DNA of 64,000 bases from Bradyrhizobium jicamae (GTDB lineage: Bacteria; Pseudomonadota; Alphaproteobacteria; Rhizobiales; Xanthobacteraceae): the NCBI RefSeq assembly GCF_018130215.1, contig NZ_JAFCKQ010000044.1:1-64000 (forward strand). The letters run 5' to 3'. A program made the position numbers and the translations under genes. Position 1 is the first letter of the stretch. Each line of letters opens with the position of its first letter. Positions 23,454-29,904 of this stretch are shown in pieces. A model generated the notes under the pieces. That model did no database searches. It was not told the DNA's origin and saw only the letters and a program-made list of their open reading frames with translations.

Positions 23454-23703
23454 TCGGCATCGCGCGGCGCCGATCCCGGCGCTGTTTAGAACCATTATTA
23501 GAACGCTTACAAAGTTACTTTAGAACGATTTCAGACTGCGTAGCCGATTTCAGGCGAAAGATTTAGAATCGCTTTGAATTAGGGCGATTCAAGCGCGTTG
23601 TTGCCGACATCGCATTGACCGGAAAATGCACGCTCAGTAACCGAAAGAGACAGTTCGCCGCACTTTCGACTCCGCGCGAACTTGATCTTCTGGGGCGTGT
23701 GAA
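23454..23703. other. Control region upstream of the TonB-dependent receptor
   Basis: This 250-base, relatively AT-rich leader contains four copies of a TTTAGAA-like heptamer and no gene. It is the most AT-rich stretch in this part of the window and probably holds the receptor promoter. Confidence 0.5.
23485..23568 (+). promoter_or_regulatory. Cluster of TTTAGAA repeats, Irr/ICE-like iron control element
   Basis: TTTAGAA occurs at 23485-23491, 23519-23525 and 23562-23568, and the variant ATTAGAA at 23497-23503, all on the plus strand. Related TTTCAGA/TTTGAAT sequences follow several copies. Irr-bound iron control elements of Bradyrhizobium contain TTTAGAA-type half-sites. The position directly upstream of an iron-siderophore receptor makes iron-responsive control by Irr likely, but the element is a direct-repeat array rather than a clean palindrome. 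Confidence 0.5.
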
Positions 23704-26280
23704 ATGAGCAATGCAAAGGCGCCGAGATCGCTTCGGTTCGAAGCGGCAATGAACTCGGCCAACGACAATTCGAATTACTCCGGCGCGAAGGTTTCCGCGG
23801 TCGCGAGCCTGATCGCGGTGGCATCCTTTTCGGGTGCCGAAGCGCAGCAGGCCCTCCCGGCGGTGACGGTCGATGCCCCGGTCGCGCGCCCGCGTCCCGC
23901 TGCCTCCAAACCGACGCCGGACCAGGTCCGCGCCCGCACGGCACTGCGCAACGCTGCGCGGCGCAACCAGCAGGCGCAGCAAGCGCCGGTGCCGTTCCCG
24001 AATGCCGGCGGTCTCGCCGCCGATCGCGATCCGTATGCGGATGCGGCGGCGCCCTACAAGGTCGACCACGTCCAGTCGTCGAGCAAGTTTCCCGAGCCGA
24101 TCCTGAACACGCCGAAGTCGATCACGGTGCTGTCGAAGGACGTGCTGGCGGACAAGAACGCCACCACGCTGAAACAGGCGATCCTGTCGACGGCCGGCGT
24201 GACGCTCGGCTCGGGCGAGGGGGGCAATGCCTTCGGCGATCGCTTCTTCATCCGCGGCTTCGACGCGCGCAACGACATCTTCATCGACGGCGTGCGCGAT
24301 CCCGGCGTCAGCGTGCGCGAGAACTTCTTCACCGAGCAGGTCGAGATCCTGCGTGGACCCGGCTCATCCTTCGCCGGCCGCGGCACCACCGGCGGCGCGA
24401 TCAACATCGTGACCAAGCAGGCCACGGAAGAGAAGAGCTTCTACAACATGGACACCACGTTTGGCACCGACCAGACCAAGCGTGTGACGCTCGACGTCAA
24501 CCAGGTGATCAGCCCGACATTGGCGGTGCGCGCGGGCGGCCTGTTTCAGGACGCCGACGTCGCCGGTCGCAACAATGTGACTGACGACCGCAGTGGCGCC
24601 TTCGTCGCGACGAAGTGGACGCCGGTCGACGCGGTGAAGATCACCGGCGATTACGTGCACACCGAGCTGCACGGCATCCCGGACTTCGGCGTGCCTTACT
24701 ATCGGCCGGGCTCGCCGGCCCCGGGAAACATCTTCACCAGCACGGCCGGCGGACCGTTTCCTGAATTCGGCTCGCCCGCCAACGCCTTCTACGGCCTGGT
24801 CAATCGCGACTTCTTCAAGGTCCAGCAGGACATCGGAACGGTCAGCGGCGAAGTCCACGTCACGCCCGACCTCGTCCTGACCGACAAGATCCGCGCCTCG
24901 CGCTCGATGAACAGCTACGTCGGGACGACTCCCGAATCTCCCGTCATCGCGACCCCGCTGTCCGCCTCGACGGTGACAATCAATCCGCAGAGCCGCTATC
25001 AGATCACCGACGTGCTCGCCAATCAGAGCGAGGCCACCTACAAGTTCGACACCGGCGGCTTCAAGCACACGGCGGTGGGTGGCGTCGAGATTTCGCGGGA
25101 GACCTCGTATATCGACAAATACGCCGGGCTCACGTCGGAGGGTAACGGCACGGTGTCCAGCACGGGCGGGTCGTTCCCCGGCACCTCGGTGTTCTATCCG
25201 CAGTACACCAACGCGCTACCGGCATCGACCCCGACGCTGGCGGGCCTGCCGACCAACCTCTCGATCGACACCAGGAGCGTCTACCTGCTCGACAGCGTCA
25301 ATTACCACGACCTCGTCATCCTCAACGGCGGCATCCGCTACGACGACTACACCATCAACACCAGCGGCTATGGCAGTGTCGGCGGCGTGACCACGCTTGG
25401 CGCGCAGAGCGCCGAGTTCGGCATGCCGAACTTCAATCTCGGCCTGACCTTGAAGCCTGCGCCGAACGGCAGCGTCTATGCGGCCTATGCGACGTCGACC
25501 AATCCGGTCGGCGCAGAATTCGACGGCACCAGCACCGCCTATGGCGGCCTTTCGCCGATCCTGAACGGCACCAACAACCAGATCTTCGGACCGGAAAAGA
25601 ACCAGGCGATCGAGGTCGGCACCAAATGGGAGCTGTTCGACCGTCATTTGCTGCTGACGGCGGCGCTGTTCCAGACCAACAAGGAAAACGCGCGTGAGGC
25701 GCAGAATGTCGGCAGCGCCGCTGCGGCTGCCGCGATTCCGGGCTGCTCGTACACGCTGCCGGCCGGGTCGGGCAGCGTATCCTGCATCACCGCCGGCGCC
25801 GCCTATTATGTCCGCGGCATCGATCTCGGCGTCGGCGGCAAGATCACCGACAAATGGAGCGTTTTCGGCGGCCTCGTGCTGATGCAATCGGAGGTCACGA
25901 AGTCGCTGGCGCCGTCGCCGCAGCCGCTGCTCTATCCGACCAATGTCGGGCTGCAGCTCGCCAACGTCGCGCACCAGTCCTTCAGCATGCTCACGAAGTA
26001 CCAGCTCACCGACGTGTGGGAGCTTGGCGGGCAGGCGGTCTATCGCTCGAAGATCTATGGCGGCACGCTGCTCGCGGCCAACCAGGGGACCTCGCTTCCG
26101 AGCTACTGGCGCTTCGACGCCTTTGCCGAGGCCAAGATCGACAAGCACTGGACCGTGAAGCTGTTCGTCAACAACATCTTCGACAAGCGTTACTACGACG
26201 CGCTCTACCAGAGTGCGACGCCGTTCGTGCTCGAAGCGCCGGGACGCGCCGCGTATCTGGTCGTGTCCGCGCGTTACTGA
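23704..26280 (+). CDS. TonB-dependent siderophore receptor
   Basis: This 858-residue outer-membrane transporter has an unusually long N-terminus (hydrophobic export core at about residues 30-48, ending GAEAQQ). A TonB-box-like LPAVTVDAP follows at about 50-58, then a Pro/Ala/Arg linker, the plug domain (FPEPILNTPKSITVLSKDVL to GGAINIVTKQA) and a 22-strand barrel. It ends in aromatic Tyr (VVSARY), as barrel proteins do. The plug is of the ferric-siderophore class; the precise ligand is unknown. A haem receptor is less likely because no FRAP/NPNL-type motif is visible. It is followed at 21 bases by piuC. Confidence 0.92.
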   Translation: MSNAKAPRSLRFEAAMNSANDNSNYSGAKVSAVASLIAVASFSGAEAQQALPAVTVDAPVARPRPAASKPTPDQVRARTALRNAARRNQQAQQAPVPFPNAGGLAADRDPYADAAAPYKVDHVQSSSKFPEPILNTPKSITVLSKDVLADKNATTLKQAILSTAGVTLGSGEGGNAFGDRFFIRGFDARNDIFIDGVRDPGVSVRENFFTEQVEILRGPGSSFAGRGTTGGAINIVTKQATEEKSFYNMDTTFGTDQTKRVTLDVNQVISPTLAVRAGGLFQDADVAGRNNVTDDRSGAFVATKWTPVDAVKITGDYVHTELHGIPDFGVPYYRPGSPAPGNIFTSTAGGPFPEFGSPANAFYGLVNRDFFKVQQDIGTVSGEVHVTPDLVLTDKIRASRSMNSYVGTTPESPVIATPLSASTVTINPQSRYQITDVLANQSEATYKFDTGGFKHTAVGGVEISRETSYIDKYAGLTSEGNGTVSSTGGSFPGTSVFYPQYTNALPASTPTLAGLPTNLSIDTRSVYLLDSVNYHDLVILNGGIRYDDYTINTSGYGSVGGVTTLGAQSAEFGMPNFNLGLTLKPAPNGSVYAAYATSTNPVGAEFDGTSTAYGGLSPILNGTNNQIFGPEKNQAIEVGTKWELFDRHLLLTAALFQTNKENAREAQNVGSAAAAAAIPGCSYTLPAGSGSVSCITAGAAYYVRGIDLGVGGKITDKWSVFGGLVLMQSEVTKSLAPSPQPLLYPTNVGLQLANVAHQSFSMLTKYQLTDVWELGGQAVYRSKIYGGTLLAANQGTSLPSYWRFDAFAEAKIDKHWTVKLFVNNIFDKRYYDALYQSATPFVLEAPGRAAYLVVSARY

Positions 26281-26301
26281 CGGAGGGAGCGAAACCGCGC
26301 G

Positions 26302-26991
26302 ATGCTGGTCTGTATTCCCAACGTGTTGAGCAAGGCCGATGTGGTGGATATCCGCCGCATCATGGATGCTGGCAGCTGGGAGGACGGCCGTTCGACCGCA
26401 GGCGCGGCTTCCGCGCTGGTCAAACGCAACGAGCAGCTGCCGCCCGACAGCGAGGTCGCGCGGCAACTCGGCAACCGCATCCTCAGCGCGCTGTCGGCCA
26501 GCCCGCGGTTCATCTCGGCGGCGATCCCGCTGAAAATCTTTCCGCCCTTGTTCAACCGCTATGCCGCCAGTGACGGACACCATTTCGGCCTGCACGTCGA
26601 CAATGCGGTGCGCGGGGACAAGCTCACCGGCTTGCGGATCCGCACCGACCTCTCGGTCACGCTGTTTTTATCGGAGCCGGAAGACTACGAGGGCGGGGAG
26701 CTCGTCATCGAGGATCTCTACGGGTCACATGAAATCAAGCTGCCGGCGGGCGATCTGGTGCTCTATCCTGCGTCCAGCCTGCATCTGGTGACGCCGGTCA
26801 CCCGGGGCACGCGGGTTGCGTCTTTCTTCTGGCTGCAGAGCATGATACGCGACGCCCACGCGCGCAGCCTGATCTTTGATCTCGACACTGCGATCCAGGC
26901 CCTGGTTGAGCGGCTGGGGCGCGACGACCCCGAAACGGTCAAATTGACCGGCATCTATCACAACCTGATCCGACACTGGGCCGAAGTATGA
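26302..26991 (+). CDS. piuC: PKHD-type Fe(II)/2-oxoglutarate hydroxylase PiuC
   Basis: This 229-residue cytosolic dioxygenase-fold protein has the iron ligands HxD in FGLHVDNAV and the distal His in [14 protein letters not shown], with the Arg that binds 2-oxoglutarate four residues on. The family (YbiX/PiuC) is almost always encoded beside TonB-dependent siderophore receptors, as here. Its substrate is not established; a role in iron release or siderophore handling is usually proposed. The length is normal. It is probably co-transcribed with the receptor. Confidence 0.93.
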
Positions 26992-27017
26992 AGACTTCGC
27001 TAGGTGCTGGATCAGAG

Positions 27018-27034
27018 ATGTTATATTGTAACAT
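27018..27034. promoter_or_regulatory. Zur-box-like palindrome
   Basis: ATGTTATATTGTAACAT is a 17-base palindrome with 6-bp perfect arms (ATGTTA and TAACAT). It starts 27 bases after the piuC stop and ends 51 before the DUF2946 start. It closely resembles the alphaproteobacterial Zur motif, whose core I recall as GTTATA-nn-ATAAC. This suggests zinc-dependent control of the DUF2946 gene and possibly of exbB, exbD and tonB. Confidence 0.55.
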
Positions 27035-27084
27035 TAGGGCGGCCGGGCAGATCCGTTGCTTTCCCGGCCGAGGCGCATGTCGAC

Positions 27085-27522
27085 ATGAAGTGGTTCCGGG
27101 CAAATATCAGACAGGGTTCGCGGCTCGCGCTTCTCGCGCTCGCGATCCAGTTTGTGCTGTCGTTCGGACATGTCCACGAAAGCCATGCGCGTGCGGCACT
27201 CGGCGACGTGCAGCACGCCGTTCGCACTGTGTCGGCGCCTGTCCCGCAAGTTGTTCGGGATGCGGGCGCGTCCTGGTTCATTCCCTCCTGGGTCGTTCGC
27301 TCGAGGGCGCACTCGGATGGTCGTTCCGATCATCATGGACTGGCAGACGATTGTCCGATCTGCGCCGTGCTGGCGCTCGCCAGCACGATGCTCTCGGCGA
27401 CGCCGCCCGAACTGCCGGCTCCTCAAGCCGCCGAGTTCGCCTATCTGATCACCAACGCCGCGCCGGTCGACGTCGATTGGGCCGATGCCGCGTTTCAGCC
27501 TCGCGGACCGCCCGTCATCTGA
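27085..27522 (+). CDS. DUF2946-family His-rich exported protein
   Basis: This 145-residue protein has one N-terminal hydrophobic segment (LALLALAIQFVLSFGHV, about residues 12-28), acting as signal or anchor. The rest carries clustered potential metal ligands: HVHESH near residue 28, HSDGRSDHHG near 86-95, and the CPIC motif typical of DUF2946 near 100. The start at 27085 follows GAGG. It sits between piuC and exbB, behind a Zur-like palindrome. A periplasmic metal-handling role (zinc or copper) is inferred from residues and context; no activity is known for the family. Confidence 0.75.
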   Translation: MKWFRANIRQGSRLALLALAIQFVLSFGHVHESHARAALGDVQHAVRTVSAPVPQVVRDAGASWFIPSWVVRSRAHSDGRSDHHGLADDCPICAVLALASTMLSATPPELPAPQAAEFAYLITNAAPVDVDWADAAFQPRGPPVI

Positions 27523-27638
27523 GCGACGGCCGGCATCGGCCCGTTGACGCGTCGCGGCTGCTATCCCGGCATCGGGCAACAGTTGCGACCGATCTGTGCA
27601 TACGCCGTGATTGAATGATCCAGTTCCCGGACAGAAGA

Positions 27639-28628
27639 ATGAAAATGTCAACCTTTCGCGCGACCCGTCGTCTAGCTCTGGTGCTGGCGACGCTGTCGTT
27701 TGCATCGCCGCTATCCGCTCAACAGACGTCCGCACAGCAGACAGCGGCTCCGGCGCCGCAACAGGCTGCAGCGCCGACGCAAGCGCAGGCGGCCCCGCCG
27801 CAGGCAGTTCCGGCACCAGCGCAGGCGCCTGCATCACCTGCCGCGATGCCCTCGGCCGCATCCGCGCCGCAGACGATCGCCGCTCCGGGCGATGGCGAGA
27901 GCAAGTTGCTGAAGTCCACTGCGACCGGCCTGCATGAGTTGTCGCCGTGGACCATGTTCATGAACGCCGACATCATCGTGAAGGCGGTGATGATCGGTCT
28001 CGCCTTCGCCTCGCTGGTCACCTGGACGGTGTTCATTGCCAAGACCATCGAGCTGACCGTCGCCCAGGGCAAGCTGCGTCGCGCGCTCGCCAGGGTCGGC
28101 GAGGCGCGGTCGCTCGCCGAGGCGCAGTTCTCGCTCGGCGCCAAGGGCAGCGTGCTGTCGTCATTCATCAACGCCGCGATGCGCGAGGGACGGCTGTCGG
28201 CCGGAATCTCCAGCGACAGCGGCATCAAGGAGCGCGCGGCCTCGAGCTTCGCCGAGATCGTGCGCGCCGAGGCGCGCCGCATCCGCATCGGCATGGGCCT
28301 GCTCGCGACCATCGGCGCGACGTCGCCGTTCGTCGGCCTGTTCGGCACTGTCTGGGGCATCATGAACAGCTTCATCGGCATTTCGAAGTCGCAGACCACG
28401 AACCTTGCCGTGGTGGCGCCCGGTATCGCCGAGGCGCTGCTCGCAACTGCGATCGGTCTCGTCGCGGCGATCCCCGCGGTCATCATCTACAATCACTTCT
28501 CGCGTGTCACGAAGGGCTATCTCGAGCTCGTCAACCGCGCCTCGGGCGCCGCGGCACGGCTGCTGTCGCGCGATCTCGACCGTACCCATGGCAGCGTGCC
28601 CGGTAGCGCCCGCGCGGCGGCGGAGTAG
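27639..28628 (+). CDS. exbB: TonB-system proton channel subunit ExbB
   Basis: This 329-residue inner-membrane protein powers TonB using the proton gradient. It has a signal-like N-terminus ending LSAQQ, then about 70 residues of Gln/Ala/Pro-rich periplasmic sequence. Three transmembrane helices follow: MIGLAFASLVTWTVFIAKT, and the pair starting GLLATIGATSPFVGLFGTVWGIM and IAEALLATAIGLVAAIPAVI. The long N-terminal extension is usual for rhizobial ExbB. The start is uncertain between 27615, 27639 and 27645. It lies three bases upstream of exbD. Confidence 0.92.
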   Translation: MKMSTFRATRRLALVLATLSFASPLSAQQTSAQQTAAPAPQQAAAPTQAQAAPPQAVPAPAQAPASPAAMPSAASAPQTIAAPGDGESKLLKSTATGLHELSPWTMFMNADIIVKAVMIGLAFASLVTWTVFIAKTIELTVAQGKLRRALARVGEARSLAEAQFSLGAKGSVLSSFINAAMREGRLSAGISSDSGIKERAASSFAEIVRAEARRIRIGMGLLATIGATSPFVGLFGTVWGIMNSFIGISKSQTTNLAVVAPGIAEALLATAIGLVAAIPAVIIYNHFSRVTKGYLELVNRASGAAARLLSRDLDRTHGSVPGSARAAAE

Positions 28629-28631
28629 GCG

Positions 28632-29099
28632 ATGGCGGTCTCGATCACAGACGCTGACGGCGACGACGATTTCGCCGAATCCCACGAGATCAACGTCACG
28701 CCGTTCATCGACGTGATGCTGGTGCTGCTGATCATCTTCATGGTGGCGGCGCCGCTCTCGACCGTCGATCTGCCGATTGACTTGCCGACCTCGACGGCAA
28801 CGGCGACGAAGAAGCCGGACAAGCCGACCTATGTCAGCATCAAGCCCGACCTCTCGCTTGCGATCGGCGAGACCTTCGTCAAGCGGGTCGATCTGGTGAA
28901 CGCGCTCGACGCCATCCCCGACATGACCAAGGACAAGTACATCTTCGTGCGCGCCGATCGGGCGGTTCCCTATGGCGAACTGATGGACGTGCTGGAATTC
29001 CTGCGCAAGGGCGGCTATTCCAAGGTCAAGCTGGTGGCGCTGGAGGGAGTTCCGGATGCGGCGGCGCAGCAGGGCGCACCGACTGCGACGAAGCCATGA
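28632..29099 (+). CDS. exbD: TonB-system subunit ExbD
   Basis: This 155-residue protein has a short cytoplasmic N-terminus and one membrane helix bearing the essential Asp (INVTPFIDVMLVLLIIFMV), followed by a periplasmic domain. It assembles with ExbB to energise TonB. It is directly coupled to exbB (3-base gap) and followed by tonB (16-base gap). Confidence 0.95.
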   Translation: MAVSITDADGDDDFAESHEINVTPFIDVMLVLLIIFMVAAPLSTVDLPIDLPTSTATATKKPDKPTYVSIKPDLSLAIGETFVKRVDLVNALDAIPDMTKDKYIFVRADRAVPYGELMDVLEFLRKGGYSKVKLVALEGVPDAAAQQGAPTATKP

Positions 29100-29115
29100 T
29101 GAAGGCCTGACGCCG

Positions 29116-29904
29116 ATGTCCGATCTCGAGCAGAAGCCGTCCCGGAAATTGTGGGTGTCCGCCGCGGTCGCAGCGCTGCTGCTGCATGTCGGCGGAGCCG
29201 CGCTCGCGCTGACCAACCTGCAGGCGGACGACCCGGAGGATGTCTCCGGCGTGTCGGCGATCGAGGTCGGAGTCGAACTGGCGGCACCGCAGCGTGAGGT
29301 CACCGATCTGCCGGCCGGTCCCGACGCGGATGCGTCGGTCGCTTCTCCTGAGGTCCCCGAGCAAAAGGCCGAGGTGAAGGAAACCGACCTGCCGAAGGAC
29401 ACCCCGACGACGACCGAAGACGCCGACCGCGTGGTGACCGAGAACGACAACAACAAGCCGAAGGAAGAAGAGCAGAAGGTCGCTGCGGTCCAGACCGCCG
29501 CATCGCAGGAGTCGGTCGCGGCGGAAGCGACCGCGATGCCGACGGTGGAAGCCGCTCCCGATGCGCAGCGCTCGGTGGCGCCGGTGGTCGGCAACGGCAA
29601 CGCGCTCAGGCACGCGCGCGAGACCTGGCAGAAGGTCCTGATGGCGCATCTCGACAAGCACAAGAAATATCCGGCCGACCGCGCGCTCAAATCGGCCGAG
29701 ATCTATGTGCGCTTCACGCTGGACCGGCTCGGGCACGTGCTCGAGACGTCGATCGAGAAGGGCTCCGGCGACGCCGCCTTCGACCAGGCTGCGATTGCAA
29801 TGGTCAAGCGCTCCGACCCGGTTCCGGCGCCGCCTCCGCTCGTCGCCGACGAGGGCCTGAGCTTCACGCTGCCCGTGATCTTCCGCGTCAAGGGCAAGGG
29901 CTGA
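29116..29904 (+). CDS. tonB: Energy transducer TonB
   Basis: This 262-residue protein spans the inner membrane once (LWVSAAVAALLLHVGGAAL, about residues 11-29). A long acidic and Pro/Lys/Thr-rich periplasmic spacer follows, then a C-terminal TonB domain (about 180-260) with HKKYPADRALKSAEIYVRFTLDRLG. It delivers energy from ExbBD to outer-membrane receptors such as the one at 23.7 kb. The ATG at 29116 was chosen because the upstream in-frame extension is only Arg-rich exbD shadow. It ends the operon. Confidence 0.94.
   Translation: MSDLEQKPSRKLWVSAAVAALLLHVGGAALALTNLQADDPEDVSGVSAIEVGVELAAPQREVTDLPAGPDADASVASPEVPEQKAEVKETDLPKDTPTTTEDADRVVTENDNNKPKEEEQKVAAVQTAASQESVAAEATAMPTVEAAPDAQRSVAPVVGNGNALRHARETWQKVLMAHLDKHKKYPADRALKSAEIYVRFTLDRLGHVLETSIEKGSGDAAFDQAAIAMVKRSDPVPAPPPLVADEGLSFTLPVIFRVKGKG

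Follow-up and report, generated by a model that had tools for sequence, protein, structure and literature searches.

Zur control of a TonB energiser has been described in Acinetobacter baumannii, where a Zur box precedes tonB1-exbB1-exbD1 and Zur-controlled ZnuD receptors are encoded in the genome (PMC3516566). The tonB gene was up-regulated 4-5 fold with TPEN, and a response of the tonB1-exbB1-exbD1 set to an iron chelator has been reported as well (PMC3516566). In Caulobacter crescentus, TonB-dependent receptors are under Zur control and the DUF2946 gene CC2720 heads a Zur-dependent operon (PMC4176598). Two further DUF2946 proteins are regulatory leaders. CruR (bp2923) of Bordetella pertussis is the copper-responsive leader of bfrG-bp2921 (PMC9426467), and in Rhodobacter capsulatus the nascent exported protein CutF gates the next gene by metal (PMC9973294). 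The word "zinc" does not occur in the main text of the CruR paper (PMC9426467). The Pseudomonas aeruginosa genes PA0433 (DUF2946)-PA0434 were up-regulated under the chelator NAC and are not marked as Zur regulon (PMC9431628). "TonB" is absent from the main text of the S. fredii Zur paper (PMC7029138).

We analysed a stretch of 64,000 nucleotides from Bradyrhizobium jicamae (contig NZ_JAFCKQ010000044.1, positions 1 to 64,000 of the forward strand), hereafter called the window, in which a putative Zur box and a DUF2946 gene stand between piuC of a siderophore receptor operon and exbB, exbD and tonB. The features of the locus are as follows.

23485..23578, + strand: Irr (ICE)-like TTTAGAA repeats upstream of the receptor, starting at 23485, 23497, 23519 and 23562, by repeat comparison with relatives
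23704..26280, + strand: TonB-dependent catecholate-siderophore receptor, PiuA/PiuD/Fiu-like (Pfam plug and barrel; PDB 5fok (PiuA), E 3.9e-112, 5nec (PiuD) and 6bpm (Fiu))
26302..26991, + strand: piuC, PKHD-type Fe(II)/2OG hydroxylase (NF003973, over cut-off)
26988..27017, + strand: what may be left of an exbB start, sharing ATGA with the piuC stop (exbB begins here in relatives without the cassette)
26996..27001, + strand: TTCGCT, 22 nt before the box, at the place of TTGACA in most receptor-linked cassettes; poor as a -35 element (promoter scan negative)
27018..27034, + strand: putative Zur box ATGTTATATTGTAACAT, by motif scans of window, genome and relatives
27085..27522, + strand: DUF2946 gene, 145 aa, probable CruR/CutF-like leader (Pfam PF11162, 30.3 bits, cut-off 23.7)
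27352..27363, + strand: CXXC motif (CPIC, residues 90-93), the leader's putative metal site, from the window translation
27502..27513, + strand: RGPP (residues 140-143), putative arrest motif 2 residues before the stop, from the window translation and relatives
27523..27638, + strand: leader-exbB intergenic region, 116 nt, with no significant RNA fold
27639..28628, + strand: exbB (Pfam MotA_ExbB)
28632..29099, + strand: exbD (Pfam ExbD)
29116..29904, + strand: tonB (Pfam TonB_2/TonB_C)

The first-pass annotation of this DNA had placed a Zur-like box immediately upstream of the DUF2946 gene and exbB/exbD/tonB, and this was confirmed. The 17-mer ATGTTATATTGTAACAT was found with exactly the letters and the position (27018-27034) given there, and 50 nt separate its end from the DUF2946 ATG (27085). 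When up to 3 mismatches were allowed, the sole other match to ATGTTATATTGTAACAT in the window was its own reverse strand (0 expected from shuffles). The genome-wide motif scan that the annotation had proposed as a check (8.55 Mb, 135 contigs) detected three places within 3 mismatches of ATGTTATANTATAACAT and none in the reversed control. The first (C70:182413) heads genes for a 63-codon His-rich peptide, znuC, znuB, znuA and a COG0523 gene; the second (C48:294733) lies 49 nt before a second DUF2946 gene, which is followed by a gene for a 791-aa TonB-dependent receptor; the third is the window box. GTTA-N5-TAAC is the core given for Zur sites (PMC4176598), and the window box holds this palindromic core within an AT-rich 17-19-mer, as Zur operators do. 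The core alone was tried as a marker of Zur sites and rejected. It occurred 7 times in the genome vs. 54 times in the reversed control and is thus not selective, whereas the full 17-mer is. The window box is also close to two published sites, the Caulobacter znuK site GATGTTATATCATAACAAT (PMC4176598, Table 1) and the gamma-proteobacterial zur box AATGTTATAWTATAACATT of the A. baumannii study (PMC3516566).

Sites with up to 2 mismatches were present in all 265 genus genomes searched, at 1-8 per genome (reversed control, 0-3 per genome). Sixty stretches around such sites were fetched from 22 other genomes of the genus (G001-G022). Within 450 nt behind the site we found znuC in 22 stretches, DUF2946 in 20, COG0523 in 12 and none of these in 6, so that 54 of the 60 sites precede one of the three kinds of gene. 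Chance occurrence of the box was ruled out by the window shuffles, the genome scan and the genus scan. The genome has three Fur-family genes, for Irr (NCBIfam IrrA, over cut-off), a Fur/Mur-like protein and a Zur-like protein of 173 aa (L091). The best NCBIfam match of the latter is Zur at 122 bits, below the cut-off of 167, and among solved structures it is most similar to 7dh7 (Fur family) and E. coli Zur (4mtd). Since the same box precedes znuCBA in its own genome and znuC, COG0523 and DUF2946 genes in the 22 sampled genomes, and a Zur-like protein is encoded, the reading of 27018-27034 as a putative Zur site is well supported. With two other Fur-family proteins in the genome, the site could instead serve Mur/Fur or Irr. 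This is highly improbable in view of its company of znuCBA and COG0523 genes and its closeness to GATGTTATATCATAACAAT and AATGTTATAWTATAACATT; the Irr-like repeats of the receptor also look quite different from the box.

A side observation concerns the znu locus. The 63-codon frame between the Zur box and znuC (L088:5939-6130; G000 C70) encodes a His-rich peptide that starts with MAHTHSHPHPHPHSHAHPHEHSH and continues with one hydrophobic stretch; it is possibly a small zinc-binding membrane protein.

To describe the DUF2946 gene, we compared 51 unique leader proteins, ∼20 of them from stretches fetched for holding a Zur site; the 30 loci L128-L157 had been chosen by protein score. L132, L147, L156, L128, L129 and L130 were dropped as duplicates, together with identical proteins and a second L206 frame. 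All 51 end in R(A/G)PP-XX-stop, with RAPP in 48 and RGPP in 3. The CXXC lies 52 residues from the stop in 47 proteins and 53 in the remaining 4, and 66-89 residues precede it with the starts as chosen (n = 51). A hydrophobic stretch at the start and conserved histidines accompany the CXXC. The gap from the leader to the next start is 107-170 nt in the 36 of 51 loci with a next start fitting the pattern, and 116 nt in the window. In the window, 46 residues separate CPIC from RGPP, and the leader is the first gene behind the Zur box, yet it lies inside a longer operon that opens with the receptor. A box at 30-60 nt was absent for 4 of the 51 proteins (L166, L169, L217 and L211). For L169, a box with 2 mismatches does lie 48 nt from the start but was outscored by a better one farther off, and in L217 the site is 392 nt away. 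In L211 (G020) and L166 (G003) the order is Zur site, COG0523 gene, DUF2946; from this order, the leader may not only head Zur operons but also occur within them.

A fixed distance from the CXXC to the C-terminal end, together with a free N-terminal part, would be expected under a tunnel-based arrest. The DUF2946 protein of the window probably acts as a CruR/CutF-type regulatory leader and forms one unit with the Zur box, a role that the first-pass annotation had overlooked. This leader likely adds a metal-responsive layer (copper in the studied members; zinc is possible). Alternatively, the Zur box and zinc control could be real and DUF2946 an ordinary exported metal-binding protein, e.g., for periplasmic zinc handling, with no ribosome arrest. 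The hydrophobic start, the conserved histidines and the CXXC would suit such a protein, and the C-terminus of R. capsulatus CutF alone did not stall in one assay (PMC9973294). We consider the exported protein rather unlikely, as the CXXC-stop distance fixed at 52-53, R(A/G)PP 2 residues from the end and the free N-part would be unexpected for a mature protein. CruR and CutF provide precedents for a leader, and the next frame is a receptor or exbB in the listed loci (L247 is without a receptor match).

The same genome holds two further DUF2946 genes over the family cut-off (G000 C56:93721-96897). They carry CCSxC and RAPP, are very similar to each other and lie ∼2.8 kb apart with copC between them. 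There is no Zur-like site near these genes (best, 7-8 mismatches), and they are a probable duplicated copper-type leader unit that exists beside the Zur kind. We also observed a 208-codon frame in the window (26988-27614, + strand) that runs from the ATG overlapping the piuC stop through the whole of DUF2946 in another frame and stops directly before an ATG at 27615, which is in frame with exbB; in L013 and L021, the ATG at the piuC stop is in frame with DUF2946. Through the 208-codon frame, ribosomes could bypass the leader on their way from piuC to exbB, but a frame arising by chance in GC-rich DNA is just as possible.

The usual home of the cassette is at the head of receptor operons. An alignment search with the leader gave matches at E 0.001 in 261 of the 265 genus genomes, and the best E was below 1e-30 in ∼230 of them (hand count); the weaker matches may be other DUF2946 kinds. 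In the loci of the 30 top-ranked genomes (L128-L157), all 30 carry a box with up to 2 mismatches, 31-54 nt before the leader ATG; the search model was built from 5 box-bearing members, 4 of which recur among these 30 loci. Behind the leader, 25 of the 30 have a frame similar to TonB-dependent receptors and the other 5 have exbB-exbD. The L134 receptor type matches ZnuD best (4rdr, E 9.7e-22), and the C48 receptor type gave weak matches only. Across the wider family (Nitrobacteraceae by tree labels), a box with up to 2 mismatches lies within 60 nt of the leader in 17 of 20 fetched loci (the exceptions are L245, L247 and L248), and 19 of the 20, all except L247, have a receptor-like frame after the leader, some by weak similarity. 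When 150 genomes were drawn evenly from the order, 4 had matches at E 1e-6, all of the genus; in 159 family genomes, matches, many of them weak, were found in 61 genomes and 19 of 47 genera. The Zur box and leader form a conserved cassette that usually heads receptor operons, some of them ZnuD-like.

A possible receptor-plus-energiser arrangement was noticed at another locus. In L217 (G022:C1:5731100-5735200), a Zur site, a DUF2946 gene and a receptor lie ∼5 kb before an ExbD gene (5738286), perhaps as one operon under a single Zur cassette.

The exbB-linked cassettes differ from this pattern in their promoter region. From one line-up of promoter regions, loci with more than 2 mismatches were dropped, along with L206, L169, L132, L013, L021, L022, L147 and L156. 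In a count over 49 unique cassettes with a box, an exact TTGACA precedes the box by 22, 23 or 25 nt in 43. Five of the six exceptions are the exbB-linked ones, with TTCGCT, TTCCCT or TTCACT in place of TTGACA; for the sixth, L169, the distance had been taken from a different box. A consensus promoter at the window box, as expected from the receptor-linked copies, was searched for and rejected: the scan of 26800-27800 detected no consensus sigma-70-type promoter (0 vs. 0.2 by chance). An internal promoter in the window is therefore doubtful. No terminator was detected by scan between piuC and exbB; the one weak match lies inside piuC, at 26809. In the window, the promoter on which Zur acts may be weak or unusual, or Zur may instead be a roadblock for transcripts coming from the receptor.

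The RNA fold of the leader-exbB region (27523-27650) was not unusual (z -0.67), and a CutF-like stem-loop over the exbB start was unsupported. When 36 receptor-linked intergenic regions were folded to a consensus, the only result was a short CGUC/GACG hairpin, and it showed little covariation. The absence of a special fold leans toward a CruR-like rather than a CutF-like mode.

We next turn to the piuC-exbB junction. From an ExbB search of 84,980 species genomes the best 80 loci were taken, not all of them the same locus. DUF2946 precedes exbB in 3 of these 80, namely L013 (B. erythrophlei GAS478) and the MAG loci L021 and L022, exactly those with a box of up to 3 mismatches. The DUF2946 letter pattern also flagged unrelated frames in L014, L053, L058 and L086, which were removed on visual inspection; L011, L037, L038 and L054 hold little upstream information, as their sequence starts no more than ∼120 bases from the ExbB match. 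Among L007-L048 and L075, 39 loci have a piuC match, and 36 of them have neither a DUF2946 match nor a box. The leader search added L128-L132 (G137, G136, G039, G230 and the genome of the window), in which exbB and exbD lie behind the leader. The G039 locus is identical with L013, and the leaders of G137/G136 are those of L021/L022; the cassette is found between piuC and exbB in the window and 4 other genomes so far. The L013/L130 and L131 boxes have one mismatch in the GTTA-N5-TAAC core.

At 8 junctions (L007, L009, L010, L014, L015, L016, L020 and L029) exbB starts at the piuC stop or a few bases after it. In the window, L013, L021 and L022, an ATG overlapping the piuC stop opens a peptide that resembles an exbB start (e.g., MNTSLGAVSEM or MNTSLGVVAEM), with the box directly after it. 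The arrangement resembles the scar that an insertion would leave where exbB starts. In the leader tree, from which L132, L147, L156, L128, L129 and L130 were dropped as duplicates, together with identical proteins and L206, the 5 exbB-linked leaders fall on one side of a branch with support 100/98, beside the receptor-linked ones (midpoint root). Vertical descent of the cassette was examined on both gene trees, on each of which the cassette label needs 3 changes; the two trees disagree on the neighbours of the window. They fit either one gain with losses or transfer between lineages. A mosaic was also observed over 23704-29904 of the window. The receptor and PiuC group with B. ivorense/tropiciagri-like rows, and ExbB-ExbD-TonB with B. 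lablabi SZCCT0422 (L014); window TonB is 44% identical to that of L007 and 80% to that of L014.

The window set has ExbB, ExbD and TonB domains together and is distinct from the tol cluster. The genome has two PF02472 (ExbD/TolR) genes, the window exbD and one in the tol cluster; the latter is preceded by a TolQ/ExbB-family gene and followed by a 311-aa frame that has no Pfam match and is TolA by its position, and then by a TolB-domain gene. On this basis, exbB-exbD-tonB of the window appears to be the only TonB energiser of the genome. Only two PF02472 genes were found in 4 of 5 cassette genomes vs. 4 of 30 others (Fisher p 0.006), in a post hoc test on genomes that are not independent (G039/G230 and G136/G137 seem to be close pairs), whose pattern G039 breaks and whose check for the cassette covers the comparison genomes other than G023-G030. 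It gives a hint that presence of the cassette goes with lack of ExbD beyond Tol.

The box before exbB could also be a non-functional passenger, with the energiser under iron control only, via the upstream Irr-type promoter. The 36 of 39 piuC loci that keep the gene order without a box, the lack of TTGACA in exbB-linked copies, the negative promoter scan of the window and the long branch (1.15) of the window leader, perhaps a sign of relaxed constraint, would all agree with a passenger. However, the exbB-linked box is kept with 1-2 mismatches in 3 lineages that differ by 15-27% from the window in ExbB, and the leader motifs are intact. The scarcity of ExbD beyond Tol in cassette genomes would provide a reason to need zinc control, and Zur could act as a roadblock without an internal promoter. 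We regard a passenger as unlikely.

The first-pass annotation had further proposed that the energiser is zinc-controlled and the receptor iron-controlled, based in part on Irr-like repeats before the receptor. Such repeats exist, and in relatives with a placeable receptor start (4 loci were not placeable) they lie at similar distances before the receptor, in keeping with Irr control of the receptor operon. Their identity as ICE elements depends on a consensus, which we take to be TTTAGAANNNTTCTAAA, and each TTTAGAA repeat is 3 mismatches off. Zinc control of the energiser stands as the best reading of the company of the box and of the Zur-like protein, but the clean split between the two metals is doubtful. 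In relatives without the box exbB directly follows piuC, like members of a single operon, no terminator was found from piuC to exbB and no promoter was found in 26800-27800. The energiser is probably under both zinc and iron controls.

Our preferred reading, which we hold to be likely, is that the Zur operator and a CruR-type leader form one cassette that was placed once before exbB in a siderophore operon, and that the energiser consequently answers to both zinc and iron shortage. With zinc present, Zur on 27018-27034 would lower DUF2946-exbB-exbD-tonB, and zinc shortage would release it. Zur would block an internal promoter overlapping the box and/or roadblock read-through from the receptor promoter, and iron shortage would reach the leader and exbB-exbD-tonB by that read-through. 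DUF2946 would not be a structural transporter part; its nascent chain, via CXXC and RGPP, would gate the genes behind it in response to metal. The cassette would ancestrally have headed Zur-controlled receptor operons before its single placement at exbB. An energiser that serves both a siderophore receptor and a zinc receptor would gain from both inputs. More tentatively, Bradyrhizobium and related genera might possess a two-layer zinc switch, in which Zur on DNA and a zinc-sensing CruR-type arrest peptide make up a movable cassette; captured in the siderophore operon, it would let the single energiser answer iron once and zinc twice. The metal is copper in both studied DUF2946 leaders, CruR and CutF (PMC9426467; PMC9973294), which weighs against our preferred reading.

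The locus would join two metal controls described apart, the repressor Zur and the DUF2946 nascent-chain leaders, of which the two examined so far are tied to copper. A leader that senses zinc would amount to a nascent-chain switch responsive to zinc; with a copper-sensing leader, copper would gate the zinc receptors and the energiser as well. Through the relocation of a regulatory cassette, an apparently sole TonB energiser would be shared between metals. A ready natural comparison is offered by close relatives that have or lack the cassette at this junction. In our literature search, which covered few subscription journals, we found no work in which Zur repression and a CruR-type leader are combined at zinc receptors or energisers.

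Compared with the known systems, the window is similar to A. baumannii in the Zur box before a TonB-ExbB-ExbD set. A. baumannii has a second, predicted Fur-type TonB set, and the available sections of that report mention neither a DUF2946 leader nor a placement between piuC and exbB in a siderophore operon (PMC3516566). B. pertussis CruR is also 145 aa long, with CXXC at residues 90-93 and RAPP at 139-142, compared to 90-93 and RGPP at 140-143 in the window leader; CruR has 45 intervening residues and 3 after RAPP, and the window leader 46 and 2. Both belong to an operon with a TonB-dependent receptor and precede an intergenic region, of 162 bp behind CruR and 116 nt in the window; CruR is the first gene there, its copper sensing has been shown and a receptor follows it, whereas energiser genes follow in the window (PMC9426467). 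CutF resembles our reading in the gating of the next gene by a nascent DUF2946 chain, but it has CxxxC and an mRNA stem-loop, and copper promotes expression, which is the opposite sign (PMC9973294); the window has no significant fold. The Caulobacter Zur sites are near-identical to the window box. The operon headed by CC2720, however, is one for zinc efflux (czrCBA-zntA) that is activated, has a poor site to which Zur binding could not be seen in vitro and is not one of receptor or energiser genes (PMC4176598). The closest relatives are the Zur-box/leader/receptor operons of the same genus and related genera, which are like the window in box, leader and spacing; ZnuD-like or other TonB-dependent receptors follow there, in contrast to exbB-exbD-tonB in the window. 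Zur-controlled TonB-ExbB-ExbD genes (A. baumannii) and a DUF2946 gene heading a Zur-dependent efflux operon (Caulobacter) were thus already known, and what is new here is the reading of Zur-linked DUF2946 proteins as leaders of the CruR/CutF type.
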